Shown in pieces: positions 3,736-44,427 of a stretch of 64,000 nt of DNA (position 1 is the first letter of the stretch; each line of letters opens with the position of its first letter). This DNA is from a virus: IMG/VR virus record IMGVR_UViG_3300030419_003599, positions 1-64,000 of that record; one strand, written 5' to 3'. Under the pieces are notes generated by a model. The model saw nothing but the letters and a program-made list of their open reading frames with translations, did not search any database and was not told the origin of the DNA. The position numbers and the translations under genes are program-made.

Positions 3736-4707
3736 TTGTCAGTAAATGCTTACTTAGAAAATGGTGTATTTTGCTGCACTTACTGCATCGGGTGTAACTT
3801 CTACACTTATGTTAAGAACCCTATTCGCACTATCGTGCCTCCGAGCCTGCGAATCTATGAAGTAGGGCCTAGAGATGGGCTACAGAACTCAAAAGTGCGA
3901 TTTTCAACATCTGAAAAGGTTGAACTTATTAAAATGCTAGAAAATGCCGGTATTTCTCATATTGAAATGGGTTCATTCGTAAATCCGGCTTTAGTCCCGG
4001 CCATGTCGGATACTGCGGCTGTATTTAGAGAAGTAATAGGCCAAATAGATGCTAAAACTGAGTTAGGCGCTCTTATTCCTAATGAAAAGGGCTTCAAAAC
4101 CGCAATTATGACTGGTTTAACCCATTTTAACATCTTTTTTTCTCCATCGGAGGCTTTTAACGCCCGAAATCTCGGAAAAACACGAAATGAGGCGTTTTTG
4201 CACTTCAAAAATGTATTGAAAGATATCCCTAAAGAAAATATCCGAGTTTATGTGTCATGTGCGTTTGGTTGCCCATTTGAAGGTGAAATTGACTCAAATC
4301 TACTGAAAAAAGCGATTCAAGACGCAAATGAACTAGGTTCAACTGTTGTTCTTTGTGATACAGTCGGAAAAGCGAACCCAAAAGCAGTAGAACGGGTTTT
4401 ACATCTAGTTGATTCAGGCATTAAAGCCGAAATTGCTTTACATTTACATGAAGGGGTTAGAGGACGCTCCGGTTTATTTGAAAATATAGAGACAGCGGTA
4501 GGACTTGGGGTGCATCAATTTGATACTAGTATTGGCGGTTTAGGTGGTTGCCCATTTATGCCGGGTTCTGGAGTGAATGTGGCTACCGAAGACCTTGTTG
4601 AATGGGCAAATGAGCGTGGGTTAGACACAGGAGTTTGCGAAAATGCTCTAGCGGAGGTCGCAGCATTTGTGGCAAGCCGCATTAGTCCTATGGAGGTGGC
4701 GCAATGA
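3736..4707 (+). CDS. mvaB: Hydroxymethylglutaryl-CoA lyase (HMG-CoA lyase)
   Basis: A DRE-TIM-type aldolase that splits HMG-CoA into acetoacetate and acetyl-CoA. The sequence shows the N-terminal active-site motif EVGPRDGLQN (about residues 42-51), the H-x-H metal ligands (ALHLHEG), and the family signature GGLGGCPFMPGSGVNVATED with the catalytic-loop cysteine. Length from GTG 3835 is 290 residues, close to the usual 300. The longest frame begins at TTG 3736 and adds 33 Cys-rich residues unlike the family N-terminus. GAGG lies only one base before this TTG, and the GTG has no ribosome-binding site, so the start is unsettled. The gene sits between tag-protein genes and its stop overlaps the next ATG. 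It looks complete and active; as a viral gene it would be auxiliary metabolism. In archaea HMG-CoA feeds isoprenoid lipid synthesis; in many bacteria the enzyme degrades leucine. Confidence 0.9.
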   Translation: MSVNAYLENGVFCCTYCIGCNFYTYVKNPIRTIVPPSLRIYEVGPRDGLQNSKVRFSTSEKVELIKMLENAGISHIEMGSFVNPALVPAMSDTAAVFREVIGQIDAKTELGALIPNEKGFKTAIMTGLTHFNIFFSPSEAFNARNLGKTRNEAFLHFKNVLKDIPKENIRVYVSCAFGCPFEGEIDSNLLKKAIQDANELGSTVVLCDTVGKANPKAVERVLHLVDSGIKAEIALHLHEGVRGRSGLFENIETAVGLGVHQFDTSIGGLGGCPFMPGSGVNVATEDLVEWANERGLDTGVCENALAEVAAFVASRISPMEVAQ

Positions 4708-5667: not shown

Positions 5668-5806
5668 ACTTATCATCTGAAGGCCGCTCTTTGGGCTTTT
5701 GTCTAATTATTAGTTCATCTTCTATAGGATAGAGCATGCCAAATAAAGCCCCGAATAGAAATGCCCCTACCCAAAGTGCAGCATGGATGACGAGAGAGTA
5801 GTCCAT
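5657..5806 (-). CDS. Small membrane protein coupled to the GNAT gene (49 aa)
   Basis: Minus-strand frame starting at ATG 5806-5804, overlapping the stop of the upstream GNAT-tag gene as TAATG. It encodes MDYSLVIHAALWVGAFLFGA and continues through one transmembrane helix (about residues 5-25), then a charged tail rich in Lys, Glu and Asp. The exact stop-start overlap argues for a real, translationally coupled gene. Function unknown. Confidence 0.65.
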   Translation of the reverse strand: MDYSLVIHAALWVGAFLFGALFGMLYPIEDELIIRQKPKERPSDDKFKA

Positions 5807-7251
5807 TAACGGACCCCTACTGATTTTAGGGTCCCTCTCTCTTTGAAATGTCTTGCTCGGTTGGCATGAGGGTCTTCTTCAACAAGTGTATGCTGACGAG
5901 TATGAGAAATATCAGGGCCGCCTCGTCCATATATACCGCGTTTGCGCCTCTCCCGATTGAGGTCTTCTCGGTATTTGACCCTTTTAGGATTTGATTCATA
6001 CTCAGTATCGTATTCTACTTTATGTCGTAAAGCCTCTGGACTTGTGGCGTGTTTGAGAAGCCTAAAAGCAAGGTCCATTGGTTCGCTAGCCAAATGGTAA
6101 TCTGGGTCATAGTCCCAATCAGTAGGTTCATTGATTTGCTCTGTCGGCTTTTCTGGTTTTGGTCGTACATCTTCCCAGTAAGGGAGGCTTGCCGAAGGGA
6201 CCGGCCTGTTGGGATTCGGATACGGGTTTGGCGTCAATCTGGTTTGTCCTCGTGCGTGCTTCCACGGTTCTTTCCCAAGTTGGGGGGGAGTTAATGGGGG
6301 TTGTTTTAATTCCTCAGATATATGTTCGCTCCATGGTACAGTAGTAATATCAGGGCGTAATGAGCCCCATTTTTCAGGGAGATGGAAATGACTTATTGTA
6401 TCAAATAATGTGTCACCCTCTTCCTCACCTAATTCCATATTATGTAAAGGGCCGAGTTCTGCAAAATGAGGGATTTTACCTAATTTACGGCCCGCTGCAC
6501 TACGCAGCCCTTTCGGTATTAACTTCATGGCTCTTGCTGCTAACCCCTGACCTTTGTCTGTGCGCGCTGAACTCATAAGTGCCCCTTCTCTACCAAGTAT
6601 TTGTTGTCCTAATAATGTCCCTAACCCTTGGCCTTCATAGCGAGGGTCAATTTGAATATAACTGACATGGGGACCCGCCATACTAGCGCGACCTATTGGT
6701 ATCATGCCTTTAGGGGCGTATGCTTCTTCATGAGGCAACAAACCTGTGTCTGGGTCGTAGAATCTTCCAGATGCATTTAGACTAGAAGGCGTATAATCCC
6801 CGCGATAAAAAGAGCCCCCCCATGATTCGCTTGGGCTTACTGCTCCTTTTGGAGCCCAAAGGGCATATTGTTTCTCCCCAAATAAATCGGACAATATACC
6901 CTTCATGTATTCATCTCTCACATCAACATCATCATCATCTTCCAATTCATCCCAATTATCGTGATACCAATCATATATTCGTTTTAATTTTGATGTAGAA
7001 GGGTCTCTTGTCGTCAAATCATTAGAGAGGTTGTAGTAATCGGCGAGGGCATTCCATTGGGGTCGCTGTGTAATTAAAGATGTAAGATGGAAATCGCTCG
7101 GTTTTAAGCCTAAGAGGCGCTTTTTATTATCTTGCGGAGAGCCAGTATCTGGTTTTTCTACTGCATCGCCTAGCGGTTTGGGCATGGCTCCCCAATCACT
7201 AAGAGTGGTCTGCCGTGCCTTCAAAAAAGACCACGATTTATCTATGCCCAT
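5806..7251 (-). CDS. GNAT-domain protein carrying an EPM tag (481 aa)
   Basis: The central region (about residues 185-265) reads as a GNAT acetyltransferase: a strand VSYIQID followed by the acetyl-CoA loop RYEGQGLGTLLG (about 204-215) and a helix ending in LAARAMKL. The N-terminus, MGIDKSWSFLK, resembles the N-terminal tag form. A full tag, SEPMDLAFRLLK, lies at residues 389-400 (bases 6087-6052), followed by a basic tail of about 80 residues. Residues 100-110 are acidic (DELEDDDDVDV). The start is supported by GGTGAGG seven bases upstream, buried in a hairpin (7259-7278). It is the only large minus-strand gene here, and the acetyl acceptor is unknown. GNAT call fairly sure; role inferred. 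Confidence 0.75.
   Translation of the reverse strand: MGIDKSWSFLKARQTTLSDWGAMPKPLGDAVEKPDTGSPQDNKKRLLGLKPSDFHLTSLITQRPQWNALADYYNLSNDLTTRDPSTSKLKRIYDWYHDNWDELEDDDDVDVRDEYMKGILSDLFGEKQYALWAPKGAVSPSESWGGSFYRGDYTPSSLNASGRFYDPDTGLLPHEEAYAPKGMIPIGRASMAGPHVSYIQIDPRYEGQGLGTLLGQQILGREGALMSSARTDKGQGLAARAMKLIPKGLRSAAGRKLGKIPHFAELGPLHNMELGEEEGDTLFDTISHFHLPEKWGSLRPDITTVPWSEHISEELKQPPLTPPQLGKEPWKHARGQTRLTPNPYPNPNRPVPSASLPYWEDVRPKPEKPTEQINEPTDWDYDPDYHLASEPMDLAFRLLKHATSPEALRHKVEYDTEYESNPKRVKYREDLNRERRKRGIYGRGGPDISHTRQHTLVEEDPHANRARHFKERGTLKSVGVR
6052..6087 (-). repeat. EPM tag in the GNAT protein (SEPMDLAFRLLK)
   Basis: Exact tag peptide between the GNAT region and a basic C-terminal tail, on the opposite strand to the other copies. 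This shows the tag is selected at the protein level and is not a strand-specific DNA element. Confidence 0.9.
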
Positions 7252-7278: not shown

Positions 7279-7339
7279 TACTAAGGAAATTAGGCTTTGG
7301 GCGTAACAATCAATATCTCCTTCCCTCTCGCAGGCGTTG

Positions 7340-8494
7340 ATGCCCTCCGTTTTAGTGGAGCCTCCTATTGAAAAGGCAGCGCCTCTCGCTCTCGCCCCTA
7401 TTGCTGCAGGCACTGCTGCTACTGCTGGTGGTGTGGGTTTGGGCGCAAGAGCATTGGGTGCCATAGGAAGGTTATTCGGAAAAAAGCCGAAAGCGCCTAA
7501 AGCGCCTAAAGCGCCTGCTTCATTGCCTGCTAGTTCTAAAACAGCAATCAAACGCCCTACCCCAGTCGGTCATGTACCCGAGCCCCCTTCCCCAATAAAA
7601 CCAATAGCGCACTCTGACCCTTTTCAACATACACTAGATGTCATGCCTAAGCAACCGGGCGTACATACTGGTGCAGGCACAACAGTTACGCAAGAGGCTC
7701 TGGATATAGGAGGTCATACTGGTGCAGGCACAACAGTTACGCAAGAGGCTCTGGATATGAATATGGCGAAACCAGAGGTAAATCCTGTAGTGAGTGGTTT
7801 CAAAAGTGGGGCAGGGCAAGCGCTTGGATATGGTGCGCTAGGGGGCGCAATGACAGGAGGAGGAGGAGGCCAAAATCCTGCAATCCAAACTGCCCAACAG
7901 AGTGCTGCACAACAACAGCAGCACAATATGGATATGCAACAACAGGCTACTCAAGCCGCTGGTACTACTGCTGGGACTCAACCCGGTGTTGCATATGGTG
8001 ATACAGCCAAAAGTCTTGATAATTGGAAATTACTCCAAGAAGCAGATGCTCTTCGTAGCGGTGGAGACCCTTCTACTGCTAATCGTTTTGTGGCTGTGTC
8101 CAGAGCATTACAAAAACCGCAAGAGATTCGTAATAAGTTTATCCAAGATTATGGGCACCGAGCAGCCGAATTGCTTGGCGAAAAGGAACCAGAGTGGAGA
8201 GAGGCAGAGCATCTTTATGAGCAAGGCAAACAAAGTGCTGATTATAGAGATATGAGACAATCTCCGAGTGAATACGATGCTGAACAGCGTAACCAGTTTT
8301 TTGCTATGATGAGAAGATTAGGCATAGGTAAAGAAAGAGAACTGGCCGCTCAACAACGAGCAGAAGAGATGTTATCGCAACTAAGGCAAGATGACCCTTC
8401 TCAATATTTTTCCGATTTACCATTTAGAGTAGAAGGCTCAAATAATCCTATGGATTTAGGGCAAGAATGGCAAGAACTGCTTAAGCCAGAATGA
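7340..8494 (+). CDS. Ala/Gln-rich protein with C-terminal tag variant (384 aa)
   Basis: ATG 7340 is preferred over TTG 7337. The N-terminus is Ala/Gly/Pro-rich and hydrophobic (residues about 12-35), followed by KAPKAPKAPA repeats. A 51-base tandem duplication gives two copies of HTGAGTTVTQEALD. The middle is Gln-rich (QQSAAQQQQHNMDMQQQ) and the C-terminal third is helical and charged. The protein ends in NNPMDLGQEWQELLKPE, a stretched form of the tag (PMDL...W..LLK). The composition suits a scaffold or internal virion protein, but no family is recognised. First gene of the plus-strand cluster to 12572, divergent from the GNAT gene. Confidence 0.65.
   Translation: MPSVLVEPPIEKAAPLALAPIAAGTAATAGGVGLGARALGAIGRLFGKKPKAPKAPKAPASLPASSKTAIKRPTPVGHVPEPPSPIKPIAHSDPFQHTLDVMPKQPGVHTGAGTTVTQEALDIGGHTGAGTTVTQEALDMNMAKPEVNPVVSGFKSGAGQALGYGALGGAMTGGGGGQNPAIQTAQQSAAQQQQHNMDMQQQATQAAGTTAGTQPGVAYGDTAKSLDNWKLLQEADALRSGGDPSTANRFVAVSRALQKPQEIRNKFIQDYGHRAAELLGEKEPEWREAEHLYEQGKQSADYRDMRQSPSEYDAEQRNQFFAMMRRLGIGKERELAAQQRAEEMLSQLRQDDPSQYFSDLPFRVEGSNNPMDLGQEWQELLKPE
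7664..7758 (+). repeat. Tandem duplication, 51-base period, two copies
   Basis: Copies start at 7664 and 7715 and are identical over 44 bases, encoding HTGAGTTVTQEALD twice. Near-perfect identity suggests a recent duplication. Confidence 0.9.
8441..8485 (+). repeat. C-terminal tag variant (NNPMDLGQEWQELLK)
   Basis: Extended form of the EPM tag two codons before the stop, with three extra residues between PMDL and the W..LLK half. Weaker match than the EPM copies. Confidence 0.5.
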
Positions 8495-8543
8495 AGATAT
8501 AGAATGGTAAAGTTTAATTTGCCCTCTCGTGTGGCCTCATAAC

Positions 8544-9092
8544 ATGGTTTCGCATAGTGATGAGCAGCAAGCAGAAATTAGATTGATGGGTTTGATATTA
8601 GCCCAATCCCTATTTGTAGGAGTAGCAGTAGGTATTTTTAATGCTGAACTTTGGCTGAATCTAAATAGCCCTTTGCTAAATGGAATGACTTATTCTATGG
8701 GAGCATTTGCTATGCAAGGTCTTGGTTATTACATGTTCAAAATGTTCTTTCAACAAGGTATGGATGAAAGAATGCACATACAAGAAGGTGAAAGGCGCCG
8801 ACAGAGTCGTTATCGTGATATGCAACGAGTATTTGATGGCCGAAGAGAAGACCTTGAATTGAGAATGCAAGAAGCACAATTAGAAAATGAACTCCGTTGG
8901 ATGGAAAACAATCCCGGTAAAATCCCTACTTGGGCATCTCTTGAAAATCAAGAGAAACTATTCAATCCCACTCCTCCTTCCCATATTGCAGGTAGTCAGG
9001 AGGCTATCAATCTTGGAGTTTCTTTTGACAAGGCAGAAGAAAAAGAGAAAAAGCGGGGTTCAGACGGGAAGTTCAAAAAGAAGGATGACTGA
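8544..9092 (+). CDS. Membrane-anchored coiled-coil protein (182 aa)
   Basis: ATG 8544 is the likely start; GTG 8529 would add five residues. Two hydrophobic segments (about residues 12-32 and 42-65, LMGLILAQSLFVGVAVGIF and SMGAFAMQGLGYYMF in outline) are followed by a long charged helix with heptad character (RMHIQEGERRRQSRYRDMQ onward) and a Lys-rich end (KRGSDGKFKKKDD). No family is recognised. Two more genes with membrane or GTPase features follow in the same operon, which suggests a membrane-associated assembly. Confidence 0.65.
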   Translation: MVSHSDEQQAEIRLMGLILAQSLFVGVAVGIFNAELWLNLNSPLLNGMTYSMGAFAMQGLGYYMFKMFFQQGMDERMHIQEGERRRQSRYRDMQRVFDGRREDLELRMQEAQLENELRWMENNPGKIPTWASLENQEKLFNPTPPSHIAGSQEAINLGVSFDKAEEKEKKRGSDGKFKKKDD

Positions 9093-9101
9093 GGACTCTA
9101 T

Positions 9102-9347
9102 ATGGGACGCATCTTCAAAACACCAAGTGATAATGCAGTTGAAGAGACATTAAGAGCGATGCATACCCAAAATGTATTGGATAATACTTATGAAAAAACT
9201 GTGGGTTGGGTTAAAGTCTTACTACTAGGCACTGTAGCAGTATTCACTCTTTCCGCTGTTGAGTATTATACTGACTGGAACTTATGGGAATCTACAGGGA
9301 ACTGGCTATCTGAATGGGCCGAGCGCCAATTGGAAAAGTTGATTTGA
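9102..9347 (+). CDS. Small single-pass membrane protein (81 aa)
   Basis: GAGGA lies eight bases before ATG 9102. Residues about 37-55 (VKVLLLGTVAVFTLSAVEYY) form one transmembrane helix between a polar N-terminal half and a Trp-rich amphipathic tail (WNLWESTGNWLSEWAERQL). The stop directly abuts the ATG of the GTPase gene, so the two are probably co-translated. Function unknown; a partner of the GTPase is a reasonable guess. Confidence 0.65.
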   Translation: MGRIFKTPSDNAVEETLRAMHTQNVLDNTYEKTVGWVKVLLLGTVAVFTLSAVEYYTDWNLWESTGNWLSEWAERQLEKLI

Positions 9348-10064
9348 ATGTCAGCACTTGCTGGTTCAGCCCTTGTTGGGGGGATGGTATGGGCAAGAGA
9401 ATTGTGGAATTATTGGAAACCTCGTAAAGTCGGAGTTTATGGTCCACAATTAGTAGGGAAGACTACTCTTGATAGATTCATGACCACTCCGGGCGAAATG
9501 GAACCAATAGCGGAAGAAGAACGCACAACCCATTTCCGCATGATGGGTCGCTATGTTTTACCTCGCCCTACGCGTAAGCGCGTGCGTTGGAAGGGAGAGA
9601 AACGAGTTGTATATAGTTCTGATATAGGAGGGGATGAAAGATTCTGGAGCCTGTGGATTGATGATATGGTCCATAGGCAAGTAGAAGCGGTTGTATTCAT
9701 GTTTGATGATAGAGCAGCGAAAGGTGGAGATGAAGCAATCCAAGCAGTTGGCGGTTTCAAATATCTTGTAGACGCTCTCATCCATCGCCAATACCGCTAT
9801 CGTTCTCTTAAAACATGGTGGAAAGGAAAAAAGTATGCGCCTAAAATGGTTATGTTAGTTGCCAATAAAGCCGATAAATGGTGGGATGACGATGCCTCAG
9901 TATTATGGCAACAAGATAGAATTGGGGAGCACAAGGTGTTTGACCCATTTCGCCCTGACCTTATTCGTTTACAGAAGGCTGGCATCCCCACAAGGCGTGG
10001 TTTTATGGCCACTCGTATAGGCTGGCAAGTAGAAAATACTATGATAGACCTATTGAGTGGGTGA
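9348..10064 (+). CDS. Ras/Arf-superfamily-like small GTPase (238 aa)
   Basis: Three nucleotide-binding motifs are visible in order: P-loop GPQLVGKT (residues 32-39), a D-x-G-G switch II motif DIGG (92-95) followed by an aromatic cluster, and the guanine-specificity motif NKAD (173-176) after the strand MVMLVA. A candidate switch I Thr lies at 60-61. The D-x-G-G form is typical of Arf/SRPR-beta-type GTPases. Residues 3-16 are hydrophobic (ALAGSALVGGMVWA) and could anchor it to a membrane. No G5 motif is obvious and the basic insert RPTRKRVRWKGEKR before switch II is unusual. It follows two membrane-protein genes and may act with them at the host membrane. GTP binding is well supported; role unknown. 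Confidence 0.75.
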   Translation: MSALAGSALVGGMVWARELWNYWKPRKVGVYGPQLVGKTTLDRFMTTPGEMEPIAEEERTTHFRMMGRYVLPRPTRKRVRWKGEKRVVYSSDIGGDERFWSLWIDDMVHRQVEAVVFMFDDRAAKGGDEAIQAVGGFKYLVDALIHRQYRYRSLKTWWKGKKYAPKMVMLVANKADKWWDDDASVLWQQDRIGEHKVFDPFRPDLIRLQKAGIPTRRGFMATRIGWQVENTMIDLLSG

Positions 10065-10068
10065 TACC

Positions 10069-10104
10069 ATGAGCCCGCTTGACGCCGCTTGGACAATTTT
10101 GAAA
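10069..10104 (+). repeat. N-terminal tag variant (MSPLDAAWTILK)
   Basis: N-terminal form of the tag: start Met, then S-P-L-D-A-A-W-x-I-L-K. P, hydrophobic, D, A, W, L and K positions align with EPMDLAWRLLK. Confidence 0.65.
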
Positions 10105-10425
10105 TCTCGCCCTGTTTCATCTTCTGGAAAGCAGTATTCTCCTCAAGAATTGCAGCAATTGCGGGCTTTCGTTAATGCTAATATAGAAAGTCCTGACCCT
10201 AATTTACAGGCTCAAGCGCAGCAAATACTTGAAGAACTCACTACAGCCATGTCTTTTGCGGGCGGTCGTACCTCATTCAACACTCCTTCAGAGCCCATTG
10301 TCCCCGGCGCTGGGCCAGTTGTCCGTGGGGCCGGAGGCCCTGCTGCATCAGTAGGCGTTCGCCCGCCTTTACCTCCAGAACCTTCAGAAGAGGATGAGGA
10401 CGATGATAAGGCATTGCCCTCTTGA
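10069..10425 (+). CDS. Tagged Pro/acidic protein (118 aa)
   Basis: ATG 10069 is chosen over GTG 10057 because the protein then begins directly with the tag form MSPLDAAWTILK, matching MKPIDSAWAILK in the gene at 17928. Residues about 25-65 are helical (QELQQLRAFVNANIES...); the C-terminal half is Gly/Pro-rich with an acidic run (PSEEDEDDDK). It overlaps nothing functional downstream and is followed by the AbrB-like gene. Unknown function; tag and composition suggest a virion-associated or scaffold-like protein. Confidence 0.65.
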   Translation: MSPLDAAWTILKSRPVSSSGKQYSPQELQQLRAFVNANIESPDPNLQAQAQQILEELTTAMSFAGGRTSFNTPSEPIVPGAGPVVRGAGGPAASVGVRPPLPPEPSEEDEDDDKALPS

Positions 10426-10460
10426 GCAACCTTTTTCATCTGCCTTCATTTGGGAGGGAT

Positions 10461-10664
10461 ATGGCTTACCCCACAGACACGACACTCATAGTACGGACTT
10501 CTGCCAAAAGCGACTCTCTAAGAGTGACTATACCCCAATGGGTTGTTAGGCAAATGAGGCTTAAAGCAGGGCATAGAATGAGATGGGAGTTAAAGCCTGA
10601 TGGGGATGATTTCAAATTAGTCGCTAAGCCGCTTAAAAGGAAACCCAATAAGGAGGATAATTAA
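10461..10664 (+). CDS. AbrB/SpoVT-type DNA-binding regulator (67 aa)
   Basis: ATG 10461 is selected because GGGAGGG precedes it by two bases; the longer TTG frame at 10422 lacks a site. The sequence SLRVTIPQWVVRQMRLKAGH followed by RMRWELKPDGDDFKLVAKPL matches the swapped-hairpin fold of AbrB/MazE-like regulators: a beta strand, the TIP turn, a short helix, then K-x-G-x and two strands. Such dimers bind palindromic or A/T-rich DNA. The palindromes in the nearby divergent gaps are possible targets. The stop overlaps the next ATG (TAATG), so the regulator is coupled to the zinc protein downstream. Confidence 0.8.
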   Translation: MAYPTDTTLIVRTSAKSDSLRVTIPQWVVRQMRLKAGHRMRWELKPDGDDFKLVAKPLKRKPNKEDN

Positions 10665-11680
10665 TGTTGAACTTCGGGCTGCCTAGTATTGGTGGTCAAA
10701 CGCAGACCCAACAAGGGGCTCCTTTAGCCGGAGTAAATGAAGCACATATCAAAGCGCTTTCGCAGCAAGGCAATCCTGCTCTCACTTATGGTGAATTAAT
10801 GGAGCAGCAATCTGCTCAAACAGAGATGATGCGAGCCGCTGCTGAACAAAATATAGAAGTCCCTAAAGTTAATTTTTACCCAAGCCGCCATCCTAATCCG
10901 GTGAAAGCCCGTAAGCAAGATATCAAACAAGCATATCGTTTGCTTAGACCCGCTAAGCGTAGTATTTTCAGTCCTCGGCGTTGGTGGTTTGGCGGTAAAT
11001 ATCGTTATAATAAACACTCACATGTATGTGTAGTAGATGGTTGCGATTGTGAAACTCTTATCCGTTTTGATAATCTCTATATGCGCATTTCAGATGAAGA
11101 AAGCGGTCGTTCTCTCTATGAATCTTATTGGCTCAACCAAATAACTGGTGAACCTCAAGCCTTTGTAGCAAAAGAGGGAGTTACTGGTGGGCGTTCAATG
11201 AGAGGTACTTATTGTCCTGAGCATTTACATCTCTACCATTTACTCACAAAATGGGAACAAGAAGAAGATAAAGAACAAAAAGATAAACCTAAGAGCATTA
11301 GAGACCGAGTGAAACGAGGCGTATCTACTGTTGCTGTCCCTGTTTCTGTTGTAAAAAAGAAAGATAATACTCCGCCTATGTTACAAAAATATGAACAATT
11401 CTTTGCTGAATTAGATAAAGACTCTAAACGCTATAACGGAATTAATATCTTACATTACAAAAATCCTGTCACAGAATTAAACGATGTTACGATGATTGTT
11501 TTTGACCTTCGTATTTTCCAACACGAACTAGAACAAATGGAATCCCAAGCGGCAGAAGCCTTCCAAAATATGTTACAGCAACAGCAACAAATGCAGACTC
11601 AACAGGCATCAATAATGGCTCCCCAAGCAACTATAGCCGAGCAACAGGCTAATGAAGTGCCTATGGTTCAGGAGCAGTGA
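10664..11680 (+). CDS. Zinc-binding-like, Gln-rich protein (338 aa)
   Basis: Preceded by AAGGAGG at good spacing. The central part has a Cys/His cluster, HVCVVDGCDCETLIRF ... GTYCPEHLHLYH, that could bind one zinc. A basic patch (KARKQDIKQAYRLLRPAKRS) lies before it. The C-terminus is a long Gln/Met-rich stretch (QNMLQQQQQMQTQQASIM). No family is recognised. The neighbours (AbrB-like regulator before, Gly/Gln-rich protein after) suggest a structural or DNA-associated role; not more can be said. Confidence 0.6.
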   Translation: MLNFGLPSIGGQTQTQQGAPLAGVNEAHIKALSQQGNPALTYGELMEQQSAQTEMMRAAAEQNIEVPKVNFYPSRHPNPVKARKQDIKQAYRLLRPAKRSIFSPRRWWFGGKYRYNKHSHVCVVDGCDCETLIRFDNLYMRISDEESGRSLYESYWLNQITGEPQAFVAKEGVTGGRSMRGTYCPEHLHLYHLLTKWEQEEDKEQKDKPKSIRDRVKRGVSTVAVPVSVVKKKDNTPPMLQKYEQFFAELDKDSKRYNGINILHYKNPVTELNDVTMIVFDLRIFQHELEQMESQAAEAFQNMLQQQQQMQTQQASIMAPQATIAEQQANEVPMVQEQ

Positions 11681-12312
11681 GTGTTATGGGGATGTTTGAT
11701 AGGCAGCCGACTGCAACTGGGACAAGATTGAACTTAGGAGCGACCGGTGCTCCGGCTTATAATGGCGCTGCCGCAAACCCATTTGCGCAAGCGAGACAAC
11801 CTATTGGAGGTGCTTTTGGTGGTGGTGTGGCATCTGCTTTTGGTATGCAACAACCTGTGCAACAACAAGTGACTCCTCCAAATGAAACTGAAATCCTTAT
11901 TCATCTACTCAATAGTGGATATCCGATAGAGCGTTGGCTTACAGGCGCTGGCTTCCAATCATTTGTTCAAATGTTATCAGTAATGATGGAATTGGCTGTA
12001 GTCAATTTCTTTCGTGATGCCAAGTTCGTAATTGATGATGATACTGGGTCAATGATTCTTGACCCTACATCTTTATCCACTGAAATGCAGACACTATCTA
12101 GTGAAAATGTGGTAAGTGAGTTCGCCAATGTGCTAGCAGAAGCAGAGAAAACTAAGACAGAAGCAACTGCCCTCCAAACAGAGATTGCCACTTATTCTCA
12201 ACAGAGCATGATGGGTTCTGCTCTTGATGCTGCTCTTGCTAATGAAGGATTTATGGAAAAGATGGGTAGTGGCATTGGCTCATTGGGCCGCGGATTTATA
12301 GGAATGAAGTGA
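11677..12312 (+). CDS. Hypothetical protein with Gly/Gln-rich head and helical tail (211 aa)
   Basis: GTG 11677 overlaps the previous stop; ATG 11686 is an equally plausible start nine bases on. The first 65 residues are Gly/Ala/Gln-rich and probably disordered. Residues about 70-135 are hydrophobic-helical (EILIHLLNSGYPIERWLTGA, then MMELAVVNFF). The rest is a Glu/Ala-rich coiled-coil stretch ending in GSGIGSLGRGFIGMK. No known family. The position in the cluster and an Ala/Gly-rich head similar to the protein at 7340 suggest related roles. Confidence 0.6.
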   Translation: MSVMGMFDRQPTATGTRLNLGATGAPAYNGAAANPFAQARQPIGGAFGGGVASAFGMQQPVQQQVTPPNETEILIHLLNSGYPIERWLTGAGFQSFVQMLSVMMELAVVNFFRDAKFVIDDDTGSMILDPTSLSTEMQTLSSENVVSEFANVLAEAEKTKTEATALQTEIATYSQQSMMGSALDAALANEGFMEKMGSGIGSLGRGFIGMK

Positions 12313-12317
12313 TTAAA

Positions 12318-12572
12318 ATGATTAAACCTCCAGAAATGACAGGATTTGTACCTAAAGGGCTTGCTCATACTACTATGGATATTTTTAATCCCAAAAAGAA
12401 AGTAATAGTTGATATGATAATGGTTCAACTTTTGAGTCTCATAATTGTGTTTATGGGCGTCCTTGCTTTTGCCAACCAAAAGTTGGATGCTGCAGATATG
12501 TCATATGTCATGGCAGGTTTATTTTTTAGTCTCATAATGCTAGGCGGAGTTTATGGTCGTATAGCGAGATAG
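12318..12572 (+). CDS. Small membrane protein with two transmembrane helices (84 aa)
   Basis: ATG 12318 is preferred (GTGATT upstream); GTG 12309 is the alternative. After about 32 polar residues come two hydrophobic helices (VDMIMVQLLSLIIVFMGVLA and SYVMAGLFFSLIMLGGV) separated by a short polar loop, then a basic tip (YGRIAR). Size and topology are compatible with a holin, but no endolysin gene is in the window, so this is only a possibility. Last gene of the plus-strand cluster; it converges with the zinc-ribbon gene on the other strand. Confidence 0.6.
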   Translation: MIKPPEMTGFVPKGLAHTTMDIFNPKKKVIVDMIMVQLLSLIIVFMGVLAFANQKLDAADMSYVMAGLFFSLIMLGGVYGRIAR

Positions 12573-12574
12573 CA

Positions 12575-12829
12575 CTACCATTTATCTAAAGGGCATTTAC
12601 TACTACTTAAACTAGTTTTAACCCTCATTTGGCAGCCACATTCACGGCACATATTGAGAGTCTTATTCCAACTAGGGCAAATCTCACAAATTGCTCTTCT
12701 TTCGGCCTTTTTCTCCTTTGAAACAAACCTACGATTAACCACATCTCCTGCCGCTTTGTAGAGTTCAGCGGCACGCGAACGCGGTGCTCTGGAGAGCCTC
12801 TTCATCGGCTTTATGGTAAAGTGGCTCAT
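12575..12829 (-). CDS. DUF6171-like zinc-ribbon protein (84 aa)
   Basis: Minus-strand protein with a basic N-terminus (KPMKRLSRAPRSRAAELYK) and a C-terminal cysteine pattern, ICEICPSWNKTLNMCRECGC followed by a conserved-looking M-x-x-K and a final CPLDKW. This resembles the small zinc-ribbon proteins often found near terminase genes of tailed viruses (DUF6171 type). Their role is unknown; nucleic-acid or packaging-motor binding has been suggested by context only. Isolated on this strand and divergent from the zinc/HTH gene at 12869. Confidence 0.65.
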   Translation of the reverse strand: MSHFTIKPMKRLSRAPRSRAAELYKAAGDVVNRRFVSKEKKAERRAICEICPSWNKTLNMCRECGCQMRVKTSLSSSKCPLDKW

Positions 12830-12851
12830 TGTAAAGACTTATCCACCGAGC

Positions 12852-12868
12852 CACCCTCACAGAGGGTG
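12852..12868 (+). promoter_or_regulatory. Hairpin directly before the zinc/HTH gene
   Basis: CACCCTC-ACA-GAGGGTG is a perfect 7-bp stem with a 3-base loop ending one base before ATG 12869. The 3' arm contains GAGGGTG, the only ribosome-binding-like sequence there. It resembles the hairpin at 7259-7278 and the CCCTCAC/GTGAGGG pair at 5159-5219. Confidence 0.5.
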
Positions 12869-13558
12869 ATGGCAGAGCGAGAGCGAGTGACAAAGAGGTC
12901 ATGCTCTTTCTGTCAATGTGATGAAAGAGACGAGTTAGAAGAACAACTTCAACAAGGTCTTATCTCCACTAAAGAACTAGACCGAGATATGGGTTGGAGG
13001 GCTAATACTGCTGACCGCCATTTCCGTAATCATATGGGAGATTATGTTAGAGGAGCGAATCCTTCTTGCCCTATATGCTCTCATCCGAATAGAGCCAATA
13101 TTGAGCGTTCTTATTACGAAGGGGAAATAGGTAGTGAGGCTATTGCCGAAGAAGCAGGAGTCCCAGAATCTACTGTTTATCATCATATGAGACTTCATTT
13201 CCAACCACTTGTTCAACAAACCGCAGCATTTGAAGTGGCTCTTGCGGCAGGAACCGAGGTCCAAACATTGCGTGAGAATGTAGAGGCACTTAACCATAAA
13301 TTACAACAATTGATGAGTGAAGGGAGTGTCCATGAAGAAGGATTCGTAAGAGATGCAGTAACTCTACACAAAGAAGTTCGTGAAAGTATCAAGGATTTAT
13401 TGAAGTTTGAAGAGAAATGGGGTGGGGAACCAGAAGCCCAAACTGTCAATAATACGATTAATGTACTAAAAGTAGAATTAGCGCAAGAATCTCCAGATGT
13501 TTGGCGCAGACTCAAGAAGCGTCTTTTGGAACAAGGAGATGTAGAGGTGATTGAATGA
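12869..13558 (+). CDS. Tandem zinc-knuckle/HTH protein, candidate small terminase subunit
   Basis: ATG 12869 is chosen; GTG 12821 would extend over the divergent regulatory gap. Two similar units follow each other: CSFCQCDERDELEEQLQQG with a helix-turn-helix-like stretch ending RHFRNHMG (residues 12-58), and CPICSHPNRANIERSYYEG with EAIAEEAGVPESTVYHHMRLHF (about 68-112). Each combines a C-x2-C pair, a helix, an HTH and an H-x3-H end. The C-terminal half is coiled coil. Such DNA-binding units before terminase genes suit a small terminase subunit that recognises packaging sites, but TerL is 5 kb downstream; a regulator is the alternative. Confidence 0.6.
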   Translation: MAERERVTKRSCSFCQCDERDELEEQLQQGLISTKELDRDMGWRANTADRHFRNHMGDYVRGANPSCPICSHPNRANIERSYYEGEIGSEAIAEEAGVPESTVYHHMRLHFQPLVQQTAAFEVALAAGTEVQTLRENVEALNHKLQQLMSEGSVHEEGFVRDAVTLHKEVRESIKDLLKFEEKWGGEPEAQTVNNTINVLKVELAQESPDVWRRLKKRLLEQGDVEVIE

Positions 13559-17963: not shown

Positions 17964-18815
17964 AATCCGGCTTTAGAAACAATGACACCTGCCGCTGTAG
18001 ATGCCGCAGGACCCGGTTTTTTCCTTGGACCACAAGGAATACAAGGGCAGAGTGGTCCTTTTATGTTCAATATGGGGGGTAGAGGGGCTAATCGCCCTAG
18101 TACAGCCAGACTCCTTCATGGTTTAGCCACAGGTCAAGCACCAAGAGGGACTAAGCGCGCACTTGCAGGAAGAGCGGCTGGGACTGGTTTAGGTCTGGTC
18201 AATGCTTTATTGGCTGCAGAAAGAGCACAGCGTGGTGGAGATATTGAAAGTGCTCTTGGTGCCGCTTATGCTGGCTATCAAGTACCTAAACAAAGTATTA
18301 CTGGTGCCGCAGAAGGGGAATGGAGCCATAAACCAATGTTGGATGCCCATGGGCGACCTATGCGAAAACCCAGATTAGATGAAGAAGGTAATCCAATATT
18401 AGACAAAACAGGGCGACCTATAATGGACCCAATGTTAGAGGAAGAACAAACACCCGGTGGCGCAATCGGAGGTCAGATGGAGGCCGCTCAACTTGGTCGT
18501 TCTTTTTACGATAATATAGTACAAGAAGAAGACCCTATTAATTTCCCTAGCGCTGCATCCGAATATGGCAACCTTCCTCCCCCTAAAGAAACATCTCTAC
18601 AAGCAGGGGTCCCAAATACAGCACCTACACTTGGTCAACTAAGAGCCTCAGCGACAGACACAATGCCACAAGGAGACCCTAATAGAATAACAAGTTGGAC
18701 AGGTACAGCAGTAGACCCAGCAGCGGACGCAACGCAGAATGTGGGGTTAGATGTATTCACAAACAGTGAACCGATGGACTTGGCTTTCCGTATGTTAAAG
18801 GGGGCTATGAGATGA
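17928..18815 (+). CDS. Double-tagged protein immediately before TerL (295 aa)
   Basis: Begins MKPIDSAWAILK (N-terminal tag form) and ends SEPMDLAFRMLK plus GAMR, so it has a tag at each end. Between them are Gly/Ala/Pro-rich segments and a repeated pattern (AHGRPMRKP, then TGRPIMDP). Its ATG overlaps the preceding stop (ATGA) and its stop overlaps the TerL ATG. No enzymatic motif is seen. A tag at both termini would suit a bridging or scaffold protein that contacts the same partner twice, or a carrier; inference. Confidence 0.65.
   Translation: MKPIDSAWAILKNPALETMTPAAVDAAGPGFFLGPQGIQGQSGPFMFNMGGRGANRPSTARLLHGLATGQAPRGTKRALAGRAAGTGLGLVNALLAAERAQRGGDIESALGAAYAGYQVPKQSITGAAEGEWSHKPMLDAHGRPMRKPRLDEEGNPILDKTGRPIMDPMLEEEQTPGGAIGGQMEAAQLGRSFYDNIVQEEDPINFPSAASEYGNLPPPKETSLQAGVPNTAPTLGQLRASATDTMPQGDPNRITSWTGTAVDPAADATQNVGLDVFTNSEPMDLAFRMLKGAMR
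18765..18800 (+). repeat. C-terminal EPM tag (SEPMDLAFRMLK)
   Basis: Tag five codons from the stop of the double-tagged protein. Confidence 0.85.
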
Positions 18816-20278
18816 GTGATGTTGAGAAACTCATTGAAGAAATGGACCGAGAAATGGCGGCCAAATCATTTGAGTTCTTTTTTACTGATATACTCGGGTA
18901 TGATTTCAATGACCATCACCGCGAGTGGGTAGATTGTTTGGACAATCACCGCTACTATGTAGTTAAAGCGGCTCGTGACCACGGTAAAAGCACTTTATTC
19001 ATGTCTTATGCTCTATGGATAGCGGCATTTAATCCCGGTACTCACATTATGATATTCAGTCACTCTCTTGAGCAGACTCTTGAGCATATGCGTATGATTC
19101 GTAGCCATATTGACGCTGAACCCATCCTACAATACCTCAAGCCACAAGGTATGCCATGGGCTAAATCCTACATGGAGTTCACAAACGGCAGCCGTTTGAT
19201 GGCTAAGTCGGTCGGCGGGGCAACTCGTGGTTTCCACCCTGATGTTGTAGTATGCGATGATATTCTTTGGGGTTCAACTGCTGGAGAGTTGGCTAGAACC
19301 GCTGATTGGTTTTATTCAGTTCTACTCCCTGTTCTTCACCACACTGGCCGTCTTATGATGGTAGGGACTCCATTTTCATATAATGACCTTTACACTGAAT
19401 TAGAATCCAAAGATGCTTTTGAAGTTGGAACTTTTCCTGCTATGGATTCTGATGGTATAGCATTATGGCCTAACCGTTGGGATGAAGAAGCACTAATGCA
19501 AAGGCGTATGTCAATGCCTGCTATCCAATTCGCCCGTGAGTATCTCTGTGAGCCTATTCACGATGTAGCAAGTATGTTTCCAATGGATATTTTGGAACAG
19601 GCGCGTGATGAAAATCTACGATTACTTGACCGGGCCGAAAGTGAATATGATGAAGAAGGTGAAAATATCGGCGTTTTTGGGCAACACTTTGTCGGTTGGG
19701 ACCCTGCTATTGCTTCTGATAAAAATGCAGACTATACAGCCATAGTAACAATGCGGACATTAGATGACGGCATTAAACAAGTAGTCCATGCCATCCACGA
19801 AAAGGGTTTGAACTCCGAAGCACAGAAACGCCATATCATTTTACTCAATAGTCGTTTCCAACCTGACCTTATTGAATTAGAAGGCAATAATTTTCAAAGA
19901 ATGTTTGAGACCGAATTGAGAGGTATGGATATACCAATTCGTACTTTTATGACAACTAGAGCACGAAAAGAGAGTTTATTCATGTCTCTTCTTCTCGCTT
20001 TTGAGCAGGGGCAAATTAGAACACCTTATGGGGATGAGAAGAGCAAAATATTTACTCATAAATTAGAGACTGAATTGAATAGATTTGGTATGACTAAACA
20101 AGGTAAGTTAGAGAGCGTGGGTGTGCATGACGACCTTGCTATGGGGCTTGCGTTAGCCAATTGGGCTACTAAAGAGTTCAAGGGCTCTGTTGTGATGTTA
20201 GATGATTTTCTTCCCGGGTTTGGGGAATGGGTCCAAGAAGAATTAGGTGGAGGAAGCCACCCATGGTATGTGATGTAA
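18812..20278 (+). CDS. terL: Terminase large subunit (DNA-packaging ATPase/nuclease)
   Basis: Packages DNA into the prohead through the portal and cuts it. Walker A ARDHGKST (residues 54-61), Walker B VVVCDD (145-150) and a coupling motif MMVGTPFSYND (about 182-192) mark the ATPase. The RNase H-like nuclease shows GWDPAIASDKNADYTAIV (about 294-311), an acidic ELEGNN segment, and VHDDLAMG near the C-terminus (about 437). Length 488 is normal. ATG overlaps the previous stop. All key residues are present, so it should be active. Flanked by the double-tagged protein and a tagged zinc protein. Confidence 0.95.
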   Translation: MSDVEKLIEEMDREMAAKSFEFFFTDILGYDFNDHHREWVDCLDNHRYYVVKAARDHGKSTLFMSYALWIAAFNPGTHIMIFSHSLEQTLEHMRMIRSHIDAEPILQYLKPQGMPWAKSYMEFTNGSRLMAKSVGGATRGFHPDVVVCDDILWGSTAGELARTADWFYSVLLPVLHHTGRLMMVGTPFSYNDLYTELESKDAFEVGTFPAMDSDGIALWPNRWDEEALMQRRMSMPAIQFAREYLCEPIHDVASMFPMDILEQARDENLRLLDRAESEYDEEGENIGVFGQHFVGWDPAIASDKNADYTAIVTMRTLDDGIKQVVHAIHEKGLNSEAQKRHIILLNSRFQPDLIELEGNNFQRMFETELRGMDIPIRTFMTTRARKESLFMSLLLAFEQGQIRTPYGDEKSKIFTHKLETELNRFGMTKQGKLESVGVHDDLAMGLALANWATKEFKGSVVMLDDFLPGFGEWVQEELGGGSHPWYVM

Positions 20279-20604: not shown

Positions 20605-21966
20605 ATGTGGGGTTCGGGTTTAGTTGGCGACAATTATGATAGCGATTTAGATATTGAAGAAATACAAAGCCCTCTCGTGAGGGCAATTACTAAAGAGTTG
20701 TCACAGCACCCTCATTTCAAGGATAAACCGAAGGGGCTGGTTAGTATAGTCATCAATCTCCAAGGAAAAGAAAAAACAGAGGAGAAAGAGGAAGATATGT
20801 CTAAGAAATCTTACCCAGTATTCGCTGAAAATGGAGATGGTTGGTTTGAAGAAAATATTGGTAAGAGTGCTGATAATATTGTGAAAGACTTACGCAGAGC
20901 CCGCCGACATCATAAAGATTTCAAGAATGATATAGATGATATCATCCGTAGCGTTCAGACCCTAAAAGCCGCAGAAGTAGAAAATACTCTCCAGATGTTC
21001 CCATGGATGGATGGTCGTAGTGATACAATGCGTGAATTAGGTTTATCTGACCGCGATTTGAAAGCACTGCGTAGATTTGGTTCTGCTCGCTCTACTTCAT
21101 TAACTCGTGCTTGCGAACAGTGGGATAATGCAACTGGCGTAATTAAAACACTTGAATCAATAGAAGAAGCGTGGGATAGTGACCAAAAGAATGAATGGGC
21201 TAAGGCAATGAAACTTCGTAAAGATGCTCGTAAATCATGGAGAAGCACTTTACACCAAACTGATACTCTCAATAAATACGAAAAAGAATGGTTGAATATG
21301 GCTGTTGAAGAACTTGAACTTCGTGGCCCCATGAAAGCCCAAGATATGGTAGGCAATATGTTTGACAGAGGGCTTGACCAAAATCACAGAAAAGGTCTTT
21401 CAAGTCGCAAACTTGGCGGACTTCTGAATACATATGGGGAAGAAGTCAACATCATGAAGGGAGCAAGAAGAGGTGAATATGTCCTTCTTAAACAAAATGC
21501 TTTAGTCATCAAAGAATCTCAAGTGTGGCCTTATGCAGCAGGATTCCTTGATGCAGACGGCTATATTACAATCACAAAGAGAGGGGAGCCTCGTGCAGGA
21601 TTCATCGCTACAGGCGAGCGCGGGCGTGTGCATTGTGAGCAATTGCATAAAACTCTAGGTTGTGGAGTATTACAACTTGACCAGAAAGTGTATAAAGACG
21701 GGCAAAGAAGTCAGCACCGCCTCCAGTTTTATTCTAAAGATGATGTAAGGAAATTACTCAATGGTATCTCTCCTCATCTTCAAATGAAAAACTTACAAGC
21801 CAAAGCAGTATTAGAGTTCCTTGACGCAGATTCTGAAAGAAAAAGTCAATTACAAAGAGTAGTCCAATACCAAAATTGGTGTGATACAGCGAAAGGTAAA
21901 GAACTCCTCAATGAGTGGGGCATTAACGCAGAGACTATAGGTAAGTGGAGTGAGGCGATTAACTAA
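20605..21966 (+). CDS. Protein with helical/winged-helix-like region and LAGLIDADG endonuclease-like domain (453 aa)
   Basis: ATG 20605 is preferred over ATG 20569, which would overlap the zinc gene by 32 bases; GGAG lies 10 bases upstream. Residues 1-210 are helical and charged. About 230-300 resemble a winged helix (KAQDMVGNMFDRGLDQNHRK, then SSRKLGGLLNTYG). From about 305 a LAGLIDADG-type homing endonuclease domain follows, with AAGFLDADGYITI at its core; the Asp is kept. Only one motif copy is visible, so it would act as a dimer or be domesticated. No intein splice junctions are seen in TerL or portal around it. Confidence 0.7.
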   Translation: MWGSGLVGDNYDSDLDIEEIQSPLVRAITKELSQHPHFKDKPKGLVSIVINLQGKEKTEEKEEDMSKKSYPVFAENGDGWFEENIGKSADNIVKDLRRARRHHKDFKNDIDDIIRSVQTLKAAEVENTLQMFPWMDGRSDTMRELGLSDRDLKALRRFGSARSTSLTRACEQWDNATGVIKTLESIEEAWDSDQKNEWAKAMKLRKDARKSWRSTLHQTDTLNKYEKEWLNMAVEELELRGPMKAQDMVGNMFDRGLDQNHRKGLSSRKLGGLLNTYGEEVNIMKGARRGEYVLLKQNALVIKESQVWPYAAGFLDADGYITITKRGEPRAGFIATGERGRVHCEQLHKTLGCGVLQLDQKVYKDGQRSQHRLQFYSKDDVRKLLNGISPHLQMKNLQAKAVLEFLDADSERKSQLQRVVQYQNWCDTAKGKELLNEWGINAETIGKWSEAIN

Positions 21967-23744
21967 TGGTAGAAGAAGGAGAGGGTGGAAGCCGAATTGG
22001 TAGATTTCTATCTACATTAGCCAAGCCATTCAAGCGCAGAGAAACACCTGCCCCACAAATGCCACTTTGGACAAGTGGTATCCAAGAGCCAGTTCTTTCA
22101 CAAGGTATTACTATTCCTGCTCTTTATGCAGTTTCTAACGAGAATCTAATTCTACGCACAGTACTTTCCACTATTCGCCAAGAAATGTTTCGCCGTGGTT
22201 GGTTTTGGGAAAAGAAGTTTAGGCAAAAGTGCGAACAGTGTGATATAGAATATCAACATGAAGTAGAAGCGTGTGAAGAATGCGGGGGCGAAGTCAGAAA
22301 ACCTGACCAAGATGAACTCATATATCCTAAATGGTTATTTGGTCAAGACAACAGTATGGAGCAATCTTTCCTCCAAATACTTTCTGAGATTGAGAATGAT
22401 TTGAATATTGTAGATGACGCTTTTCTCATTATGGTGAAAGAGTATTTCGTGGATAAAGACAGTGGCAAACCTGCCTTTTATCGCATCAAAGAGATTATTC
22501 GCGGTGACCCAGTATTCATGCGTATAGTAGCGGATAAGCGTGGTGTTCGCGGAGGGCGCTACAAAGTCTGCCTCCTCCATCGTGACCAAGTTTCTTATCC
22601 GGGTCAAGAAACTGAGTGCCCTACTTGCGGAAATGAATTACACGATGTACATCACATTAATACTGCAGGAAGCGGTAAAACGCAATATTATCTTGAAGGA
22701 GAAGTAATACATATATCAAAATATAATCCTTCCAAACTCTATGGCAGACCGCCTGTGAATACATTATGGCGCCAAGCAATGACTCTTACTGCTATGGATA
22801 ATTATATCTATACAGCCTATCAAAAGCGTAGAACACCAAAAGGTATCATATCTGTGACTACAGACAACTTAGAATCCATGAAGTCTTTTTGGAAGGCTGT
22901 AGACGAAAAGATGGAGAGAGACCCGCACTATGTCCCACGAGTTGGTATTGAATCAAGTAGTGGTCGTGGTGGAGTGAATTGGGTTAAGTTCATGGATACA
23001 TTAGAAGAGATGCAATATATTGCTGTACGCGATGAGGTGCGTATGCGTATAGCAGCATTTTATGGTGTGTCTAATGTTTTCATGATGGATACTGGTAAAG
23101 GGGGTGGTTTGAATAATGAAGGCATGCAAATGGTTGTCACAAACCGCGCTGTTGAGTTTGGGCAAAAAATATATTCTGACCTTTTATTCCCTAAGATGCT
23201 TTCAGTTATGGGCGTTAAAGATTGGAAATTAACACTACGGCCTTCTGAGGAAGAAGATGAAGTTACCCGACTTCGTCGTGATGAAATGGAAGTTAATATC
23301 GCTCAGCGCATGATGATGTTAGGATTCCAGCCTGAACTCATTGATGAACATGAAAAGGATATACGCTTTACTTACAAATCACCTCCTCCTCAACCCGCTG
23401 CTCAACCCGGTATGCCTCCGGGTGGAATGCCTCCGGGTGGAATGCCTCCGGGTGGAATGCCAATGGCCGGTGGAATGCCACCAGCAATGATGCCGGGAAT
23501 GAATCAGTCTCACCCGTCTATGTCAAGAGGTATGGCACCGGGTATGGCGCAAGCAATGCCCGCTTCACAGCCCGGGGGAGAAGGTATGGGCATCCGAACG
23601 CCTAGTGGTCCTGCAGCACCAGTAAGAGGTTCTATGACCGCAGGCGCTCCCTTCCAAACTACTCAACAAAGAGGAGTGCAACCCGGCCCATCTGGTATGG
23701 CTTCTCAAGCAATTATGGACGCTCGGCGGCCTAGGGGTCTTTGA
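21966..23744 (+). CDS. Portal protein with inserted zinc-ribbon motifs (592 aa)
   Basis: Position after TerL, length, and features such as EGEVIHISKYNPSKLYGRPP, RRTPKGIISV and RDEVRMRIAAFYGVSNVFM are typical of phage-type portal proteins, which form the dodecameric DNA gate. Two Cys pairs CEQC ... CEEC (about residues 89-108) and a second group C(LLHRDQVSYPGQETE)CPTC (about 203-223) look like zinc-ribbon insertions in the outer part. The last 130 residues are Pro/Gly/Met-rich with GMPPG repeats and probably disordered. TAATG overlap with the previous gene. Confidence 0.88.
   Translation: MVEEGEGGSRIGRFLSTLAKPFKRRETPAPQMPLWTSGIQEPVLSQGITIPALYAVSNENLILRTVLSTIRQEMFRRGWFWEKKFRQKCEQCDIEYQHEVEACEECGGEVRKPDQDELIYPKWLFGQDNSMEQSFLQILSEIENDLNIVDDAFLIMVKEYFVDKDSGKPAFYRIKEIIRGDPVFMRIVADKRGVRGGRYKVCLLHRDQVSYPGQETECPTCGNELHDVHHINTAGSGKTQYYLEGEVIHISKYNPSKLYGRPPVNTLWRQAMTLTAMDNYIYTAYQKRRTPKGIISVTTDNLESMKSFWKAVDEKMERDPHYVPRVGIESSSGRGGVNWVKFMDTLEEMQYIAVRDEVRMRIAAFYGVSNVFMMDTGKGGGLNNEGMQMVVTNRAVEFGQKIYSDLLFPKMLSVMGVKDWKLTLRPSEEEDEVTRLRRDEMEVNIAQRMMMLGFQPELIDEHEKDIRFTYKSPPPQPAAQPGMPPGGMPPGGMPPGGMPMAGGMPPAMMPGMNQSHPSMSRGMAPGMAQAMPASQPGGEGMGIRTPSGPAAPVRGSMTAGAPFQTTQQRGVQPGPSGMASQAIMDARRPRGL
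23412..23456 (+). repeat. 15-base tandem repeat (3 copies) in the portal tail
   Basis: ATGCCTCCGGGTGGA repeated three times, encoding MPPGG units, followed by degenerate copies. Confidence 0.9.
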
Positions 23745-44416: not shown

Positions 44417-44427
44417 GGTGTTACAAA

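Follow-up and report, generated by a model that had tools for sequence, protein, structure and literature searches.

What would a tailed virus do with a small GTPase encoded beside two membrane proteins, and is the protein such a GTPase at all? The question is raised by positions 8544-10064 of the window, that is, the whole 64,000-nucleotide stretch analyzed here (positions 1 to 64,000 of the IMG/VR virus record IMGVR_UViG_3300030419_003599). A first, sequence-only reading had placed three open reading frames (ORFs) in this interval, and all three were found there on the plus strand. Their features are as follows:

8544-9092, plus strand: M1, membrane protein (ORF, hydropathy, alignment), found upstream of the GTPase at all assessable loci
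9102-9347, plus strand: M2, 81-aa single-span membrane protein (hydropathy, alignment), present in every assessable locus
9348-10064, plus strand: GTPase, Ras-superfamily-like, 238 aa (AlphaFold2 model, Foldseek against PDB, TIGR00231)
9351-9416, plus strand: predicted N-terminal helix of the GTPase, residues 2-23, candidate membrane anchor (DSSP of the model, hydropathy)
9441-9467, plus strand: G1 or P-loop, residues 32-40, GPQLVGKTT; GxxxxGKTT in 80/80 distinct full-length homologues
9522-9527, plus strand: G2 or switch I, R59-T60; RTxH in 80/80
9621-9656, plus strand: G3 or switch II, residues 92-103, DIGGDERFWSLW; pattern D-x-[GA]-G-[QED]..FWxLW
9864-9875, plus strand: G4, residues 173-176, NKAD, guanine specificity; 80/80
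10008-10034, plus strand: G5-like, residues 221-229, ATRIGWQVE; [AS]TxIGWxVE in 77/80 (alignment)

All five G motifs, which in the window read G32-PQLVGKTT, R59-T60, D92-I-G-G, N173-K-A-D and A221-T-R-I-G-W-x-V-E, align across 20 homologues. When 116 full-length homologues were compared, at least 99% invariance was found at G37-K38-T39-T40, T60, D92 and G95, at W100, L102 and W103 in the G3 region, and at N173-K174-A175-D176 and A221-T222. Three motifs had been singled out beforehand: the P-loop and NKxD are borne out, while D-x-G-G describes the window copy and is replaced by D-x-A-G in several relatives. The position after D-x-[GA]-G, that of the catalytic Gln, is occupied by Q, E or D across relatives.

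An AlphaFold2 model built from 20 sequences (pTM 0.75, mean pLDDT 71) shows the strand and helix order b1-a1-b2-b3-a2-b4-a3-b5-a4-b6-a5, which is that of a canonical G domain, with an extra helix between a3 and b5 and a predicted N-terminal helix. In a Foldseek search of the PDB the model matched Ras, Rab, Rho and Arl proteins (E down to 2e-8, probability 1.00), and the top 50 matches listed were all Ras-superfamily proteins or complexes containing them. The best E-values belonged to Rabs. The top TM-score among the matches listed was that of chain G of a tubulin-cofactor complex (9edt_G; TMq 0.58, TMt 0.70), which we take to be Arl2. No structural match to a non-GTPase P-loop family, the outcome named in advance as contrary to a Ras-type GTPase, was found in this search. 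The match to Ras-superfamily G domains, together with the invariance seen in the 116 homologues, indicates that the motifs are no chance occurrence.

Could the protein still be another P-loop NTPase, for instance an ATPase of packaging or partition? Profile searches gave weak matches to RecA, confined to the P-loop, which would favor such an identity, but it is hardly credible in view of the invariant NKAD and G5 motifs, the G-domain strand order of the model and the Ras-superfamily character of the listed PDB matches. The product of 9348-10064 is, judging from model and motifs, almost certainly a guanine-nucleotide switch protein of the Ras superfamily, and it may be expected to bind and hydrolyze GTP. 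Fold and G motifs thus support the initial claim that a tailed virus encodes a Ras-type GTPase. PDB profile searches with the GTPase alignments, which returned RecA and acyl-CoA dehydrogenase, gave mostly P-loop-only or chance matches and were disregarded.

The branch of the superfamily was also considered. The window protein scored 10.2 bits against Pfam Arf (cut-off 22.3) and 11.1 bits against TIGR00231 small_GTP (cut-off 42.5), and thus reached neither cut-off; among better-scoring relatives, the best E-values were 5e-4 for TIGR00231 and 0.0012 for Roc. A curated profile cut-off (Pfam/NCBIfam) is an operational criterion and lies outside the definition of a Ras-superfamily small GTPase. As no curated family cut-off was reached, we regard the protein as a divergent Ras-superfamily branch and not as an Arf.

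The label “Arf-like”, proposed from sequence alone, is accurate in some respects only. Like Arf, Arl and Sar proteins (PF00025), the viral GTPase has a GKTT P-loop, D-x-G-G in most members, Leu and Trp at positions 10 and 11 after the G3 Asp, and an N-terminal helix. However, where Arfs have W-D-x-G-G-Q in switch II, the viral family has S/A-D-x-[GA]-G-[QED], so that neither the Trp before the G3 Asp nor the catalytic Gln is conserved; it lacks the N-myristoylated Gly2 of Arfs (the second residue is usually S or V), carries the extra helix between a3 and b5, and stays far under the Pfam Arf cut-off. Rab and Ras proteins share the fold, and switch II of many viral members reads GQERF as in Rabs, but identity is about 10-20% and the viral protein is devoid of a C-terminal prenylation tail. 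The beta subunit of the SRP receptor (PF09439) offers another parallel, a membrane-anchored Arf-like G domain beside another membrane component; its Pfam profile matched one relative weakly (E 0.057, far under any cut-off). SRP receptor beta has an N-terminal transmembrane helix and pairs with SR-alpha; the N-terminal segment of the viral protein is moderately hydrophobic. Among viral structures, the BFVD matches listed came nearly all from giant viruses of eukaryotes (one was unnamed), such as Klosneuvirus, Orpheovirus and pithoviruses, whose Ras/Rab/Ran-like proteins have the same fold; no tailed phage was among the top matches listed.

The genes around the GTPase were then examined. M1, which has an alternative in-frame GTG at 8529, shows a clear hydrophobic segment at about residues 14-32 and a weaker one at about 50-68, followed by a long polar, charged, apparently helical stretch and a basic C-terminal tail (alignment of 20 sequences, 43% mean column identity). 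M2 has one hydrophobic segment at about residues 35-53, behind the conserved N-terminus MGxxFKTPSDxAxExTLRAxH, in agreement with its early description as single-pass. With gaps of 9 bp (M1/M2) and 0 bp (M2/GTPase) the trio is nearly contiguous and, as had been noticed, the GTPase directly follows two membrane proteins, an order that is conserved. An apparent overlap of the GTPase and M2 genes at ten loci was traced to alternative starts upstream, that is, to wrong start codons.

The N-terminus of the GTPase, described at first as hydrophobic, is so to a moderate degree: the best 19-residue Kyte-Doolittle mean is 1.0. G6, G11 and P25-R26 are conserved in this region, and the helix has low pLDDT in the model. 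Such moderate hydropathy makes an amphipathic or interfacial helix more likely than a transmembrane one, and membrane contact through the N-terminus would probably be interfacial.

Downstream of the GTPase, the following ORFs precede the packaging genes:

10057-10425, plus strand: d1, short acidic ORF rich in Pro and Gly, located between the GTPase and d3; absent from most relatives, not conserved
10422-10664, plus strand: AbrB/MazE-like putative DNA-binding ORF (Pfam MazE_antitoxin E 0.0017, under cut-off), an optional insertion between the GTPase and d3, patchy in relatives
10664-11680, plus strand: d3, 338-aa cysteine-rich protein, fourth cassette member and next conserved gene downstream of the GTPase (alignments)
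12309-12572, plus strand: d5, 87 aa, two hydrophobic segments (hydropathy), conserved gene order

Wherever the locus could be assessed, d3 lies at most about 1.1 kb downstream of the GTPase. Its conserved residues C122, C127, C184 and H187 suggest a zinc site. The AlphaFold2 model of d3 (pTM 0.52) had no PDB match below E 1, and identification as an ArfGAP or a known zinc domain was discarded on this ground; with no known fold matched, a GAP or effector role for d3 is a guess. Searches with M1, M2 and d3 against Pfam, NCBIfam, PHROGs and PADLOC gave nothing significant. A further membrane partner is possible in d5.

Other observations in the vicinity deserve mention. The size and layout of d5 are holin-like, which would bear on the exit of these viruses from the cell. 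Two conserved ORFs that lie between d5 and the packaging genes could encode a regulator or a small terminase: a short cysteine-rich one (12575-12829, minus strand) and, abutting it, one whose product has HTH and Cys/His motifs (12821-13558, plus strand). Just upstream of M1, the ORF at 7337-8494 has a Gly/Ala-rich hydrophobic N-terminus and carries a near-perfect internal repeat, HTGAGTTVTQEALD, twice; its length is 385 aa in the window and about 946 aa in one relative (L001). Inside the late block, and on the opposite strand, a 481-aa ORF (5806-7251, minus strand) carries RYEGQGLGTLLG, a GNAT-like motif. Relatives share part of this ORF at 68-83% identity, but within ORFs that differ greatly in length and orientation, as if a domain had been shuffled between proteins.

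To which viruses does the locus belong? The whole record comprises 108,650 bp, with a family-B DNA polymerase and an SNF2 helicase on the strand opposite to the cassette and an HMG-CoA-lyase-like gene at 3736-4707. The late block lies on the strand of the cassette:

18812-20278, same strand as the cassette: terminase
21966-23744, same strand as the cassette: portal
30579-31961, same strand as the cassette: prohead protease
31967-33103, same strand as the cassette: capsid protein, 32-33% identical to capsid proteins of Druskaviridae haloviruses (HCTV-1, 33%)

The structural block also holds a single ORF of 5,526 aa (44413-60993, 16.6 kb), among the largest virus proteins. To our knowledge, no magrovirus has been cultured. 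Magrovirales are viruses of Marine Group II (Poseidoniales) archaea and comprise the families Aoguangviridae, Apasviridae and Krittikaviridae (PMC10768690, PMC12999244). The record has in common with them its genome size (90-110 kb), PolB, HMG-CoA lyase, a Druskaviridae-related capsid protein, and replication and morphogenesis blocks that run in opposite directions. We call it magrovirus-like on the basis of these published traits rather than of sequence comparison with the exemplars OR863078, PP497039 and ON649702. The tailed viruses that carry the cassette probably infect abundant ocean archaea.

Scans of IMG/VR identified 199 and 207 contigs encoding a relative of the GTPase. The fetched loci contained 118 distinct GTPases, two of which were left out of the order count because of contig ends; the order M1-M2-GTPase-d3 was found in 116/116 assessable loci. 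An independent search anchored on the terminase, restricted to loci with at least 9.3 kb of upstream sequence, found the GTPase in 51/51 distinct loci (41/41 in a first pass), on the same strand as TerL and 7.6-10 kb upstream. The GTPase had a median dN/dS of 0.052, and the medians of M1, M2 and d3 were 0.075-0.084. Hence, the GTPase is a core gene of magroviruses under purifying selection. Across the deepest split, paired by contig, identity to the window copy is 60-63% for the GTPase and 50-51% for the large terminase (in close relatives the two are about equal), which suggests that the requirement for the GTPase is about as strict as that for the packaging motor.

Such constancy bears on the view that the cassette might be a membrane-associated module for defense or superinfection exclusion, with the GTPase as its switch. 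Membrane proteins combined with an NTP switch are a common layout of these modules. However, conservation of 100% and a fixed place upstream of the terminase are unlike accessory defense genes, and PADLOC gave no match; this explanation appears quite improbable.

Beyond these viruses, tblastn with the GTPase gave no match in 50,697 phage records nor in 72,556 plasmids. The absence from the phage records, together with that from the top BFVD list, agrees with the early remark that such GTPases are rare in tailed viruses. HMM searches of Druskaviridae and methanogen virus relatives (HVTV-1, vir519 and part of vir335) found no GTPase, M1, M2 or d3. In the same genomes the capsid control gave its match but the terminase HMM, too, failed to, which limits the absence of the cassette to that sensitivity.

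A pattern scan of 84,980 genomes, which reaches close relatives and is not centered on Poseidoniales, detected no close cellular homologue. Only two contigs in the scan carried the GTPase, both viral and binned in bacterial MAGs (Maricaulis, Cytophagaceae). One (L103, NZMJ01000140.1) is an 8.8-kb contig with the same cassette, and the other (L104, PAUP01000076.1; 18,054 bp) is identical with an IMG/VR virus contig (L205/L343). In view of the latter identity, both are probably misbinned virus contigs.

The scan is relevant to the idea that the GTPase is a decoy, imitating a host small GTPase of vesiculation, polarity or division and blocking or redirecting its pathway, with M1 and M2 as docking sites. 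Decoys are usually patchy and recent. The viral family, in contrast, is an old one, shared by the whole group, and the 84,980 genomes yielded no cellular protein close to it. On the other hand, the variable catalytic position (Q/E/D) of the viral G domain could mean slow hydrolysis, and small GTPases of the ArvA type, which control vesiculation, occur widely among Euryarchaeota (PMC10927574). We consider a decoy rather improbable, and place it after the main rival, which is a role in the virion or in genome entry.

According to that main rival, M1, M2, the GTPase and d3 would be packaged, or be neck or ejection proteins, and their site of action would be the next host's membrane, where GTP hydrolysis or sensing would time entry. 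The location of the cassette, immediately upstream of the terminase-portal-protease-capsid block and on the same strand, is compatible with such a role, as is a dN/dS as low as that of structural genes. However, searches of PHROGs and tblastn found no homologue among virion proteins of characterized tailed viruses, and we know of no precedent for an NKxD GTPase as part of a virion. We regard this role as unlikely.

The reading that we favor, with a probability of roughly 0.4, is that the cassette encodes a membrane-bound GTP switch, active late, by which the host membrane is organized or deformed so that virions can assemble or leave. At that stage of infection, the GTPase would be attached by its N-terminal helix to the cytoplasmic side of the host membrane, and M1 and M2 would hold it there or recruit it. 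GTP loading would change switches I and II, and partners would be recruited or clustered, namely the helical tail of M1 and, probably, d3 acting as an effector or a regulator; the resulting patch would organize or deform the membrane for assembly or release of virions. Late timing would fit the strand and distance relative to TerL, which are those expected of a late gene.

Several lines favor such a membrane switch: two membrane proteins adjoin the GTPase, an N-terminal helix is predicted for it, the cassette lies upstream of the packaging genes and is strictly co-conserved, and archaea offer a precedent. The precedent is ArvA (HVO_3014), an Arf-like GTPase of the euryarchaeon Haloferax volcanii: it carries an amphipathic helix at its N-terminus, vesicle formation depends on it, and ArvB and the Zn-ribbon protein ArvC, encoded in the same operon, modulate it (PMC10927574). 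ArvA, compared here by description only, resembles the viral GTPase in being a small Ras/Arf-related protein with a predicted N-terminal membrane helix, partner genes (including a Zn-ribbon protein in ArvABC) and Arf as best Pfam guess. The partners differ, however: two soluble proteins encoded downstream in ArvABC, two membrane proteins upstream in the virus. Furthermore, ArvB (DUF2073, PF09846) and ArvC (DUF2072, PF09845) had no match in the 108,650-bp record, while positive-control genomes were matched. The viral cassette is thus not an ArvABC system, and is ArvA-like at most.

Arguments against the membrane switch are the low confidence and moderate hydrophobicity of the N-terminal helix, the absence of ArvB and ArvC, and the lack of a known fold for d3; in addition, the gene order would be equally well explained if these were virion proteins. 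Remodeling or tethering of host membranes by the trio, as suggested at the outset, is plausible. The broader proposal that a universal magrovirus core made of a GTPase, two membrane proteins and a putative zinc protein builds or opens the host membrane for assembly or exit is, for now, doubtful.

No mention of the GTPase was found in the literature searched on magroviruses and archaeal tailed viruses, a search that Philosof 2017 and Prabhu 2025 lie outside. The fold is already known; what appears new is that tailed viruses have, among their core genes, a Ras-superfamily switch with membrane partners. Membrane-acting small GTPases, a hallmark of eukaryotes, have lately been recognized in archaea too, with ArvA. 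That a globally abundant order of tailed viruses of archaea strictly conserves such a GTPase suggests that these switches serve virus-host conflict beyond eukaryotes. The cassette, which is small and hence amenable to testing by expression in Haloferax volcanii or in vitro, is a concrete candidate for an unexplained step, the assembly of magroviruses at the host membrane or their exit through it. If the membrane switch is real, these viruses would use the host membrane in a way not described in any tailed virus.
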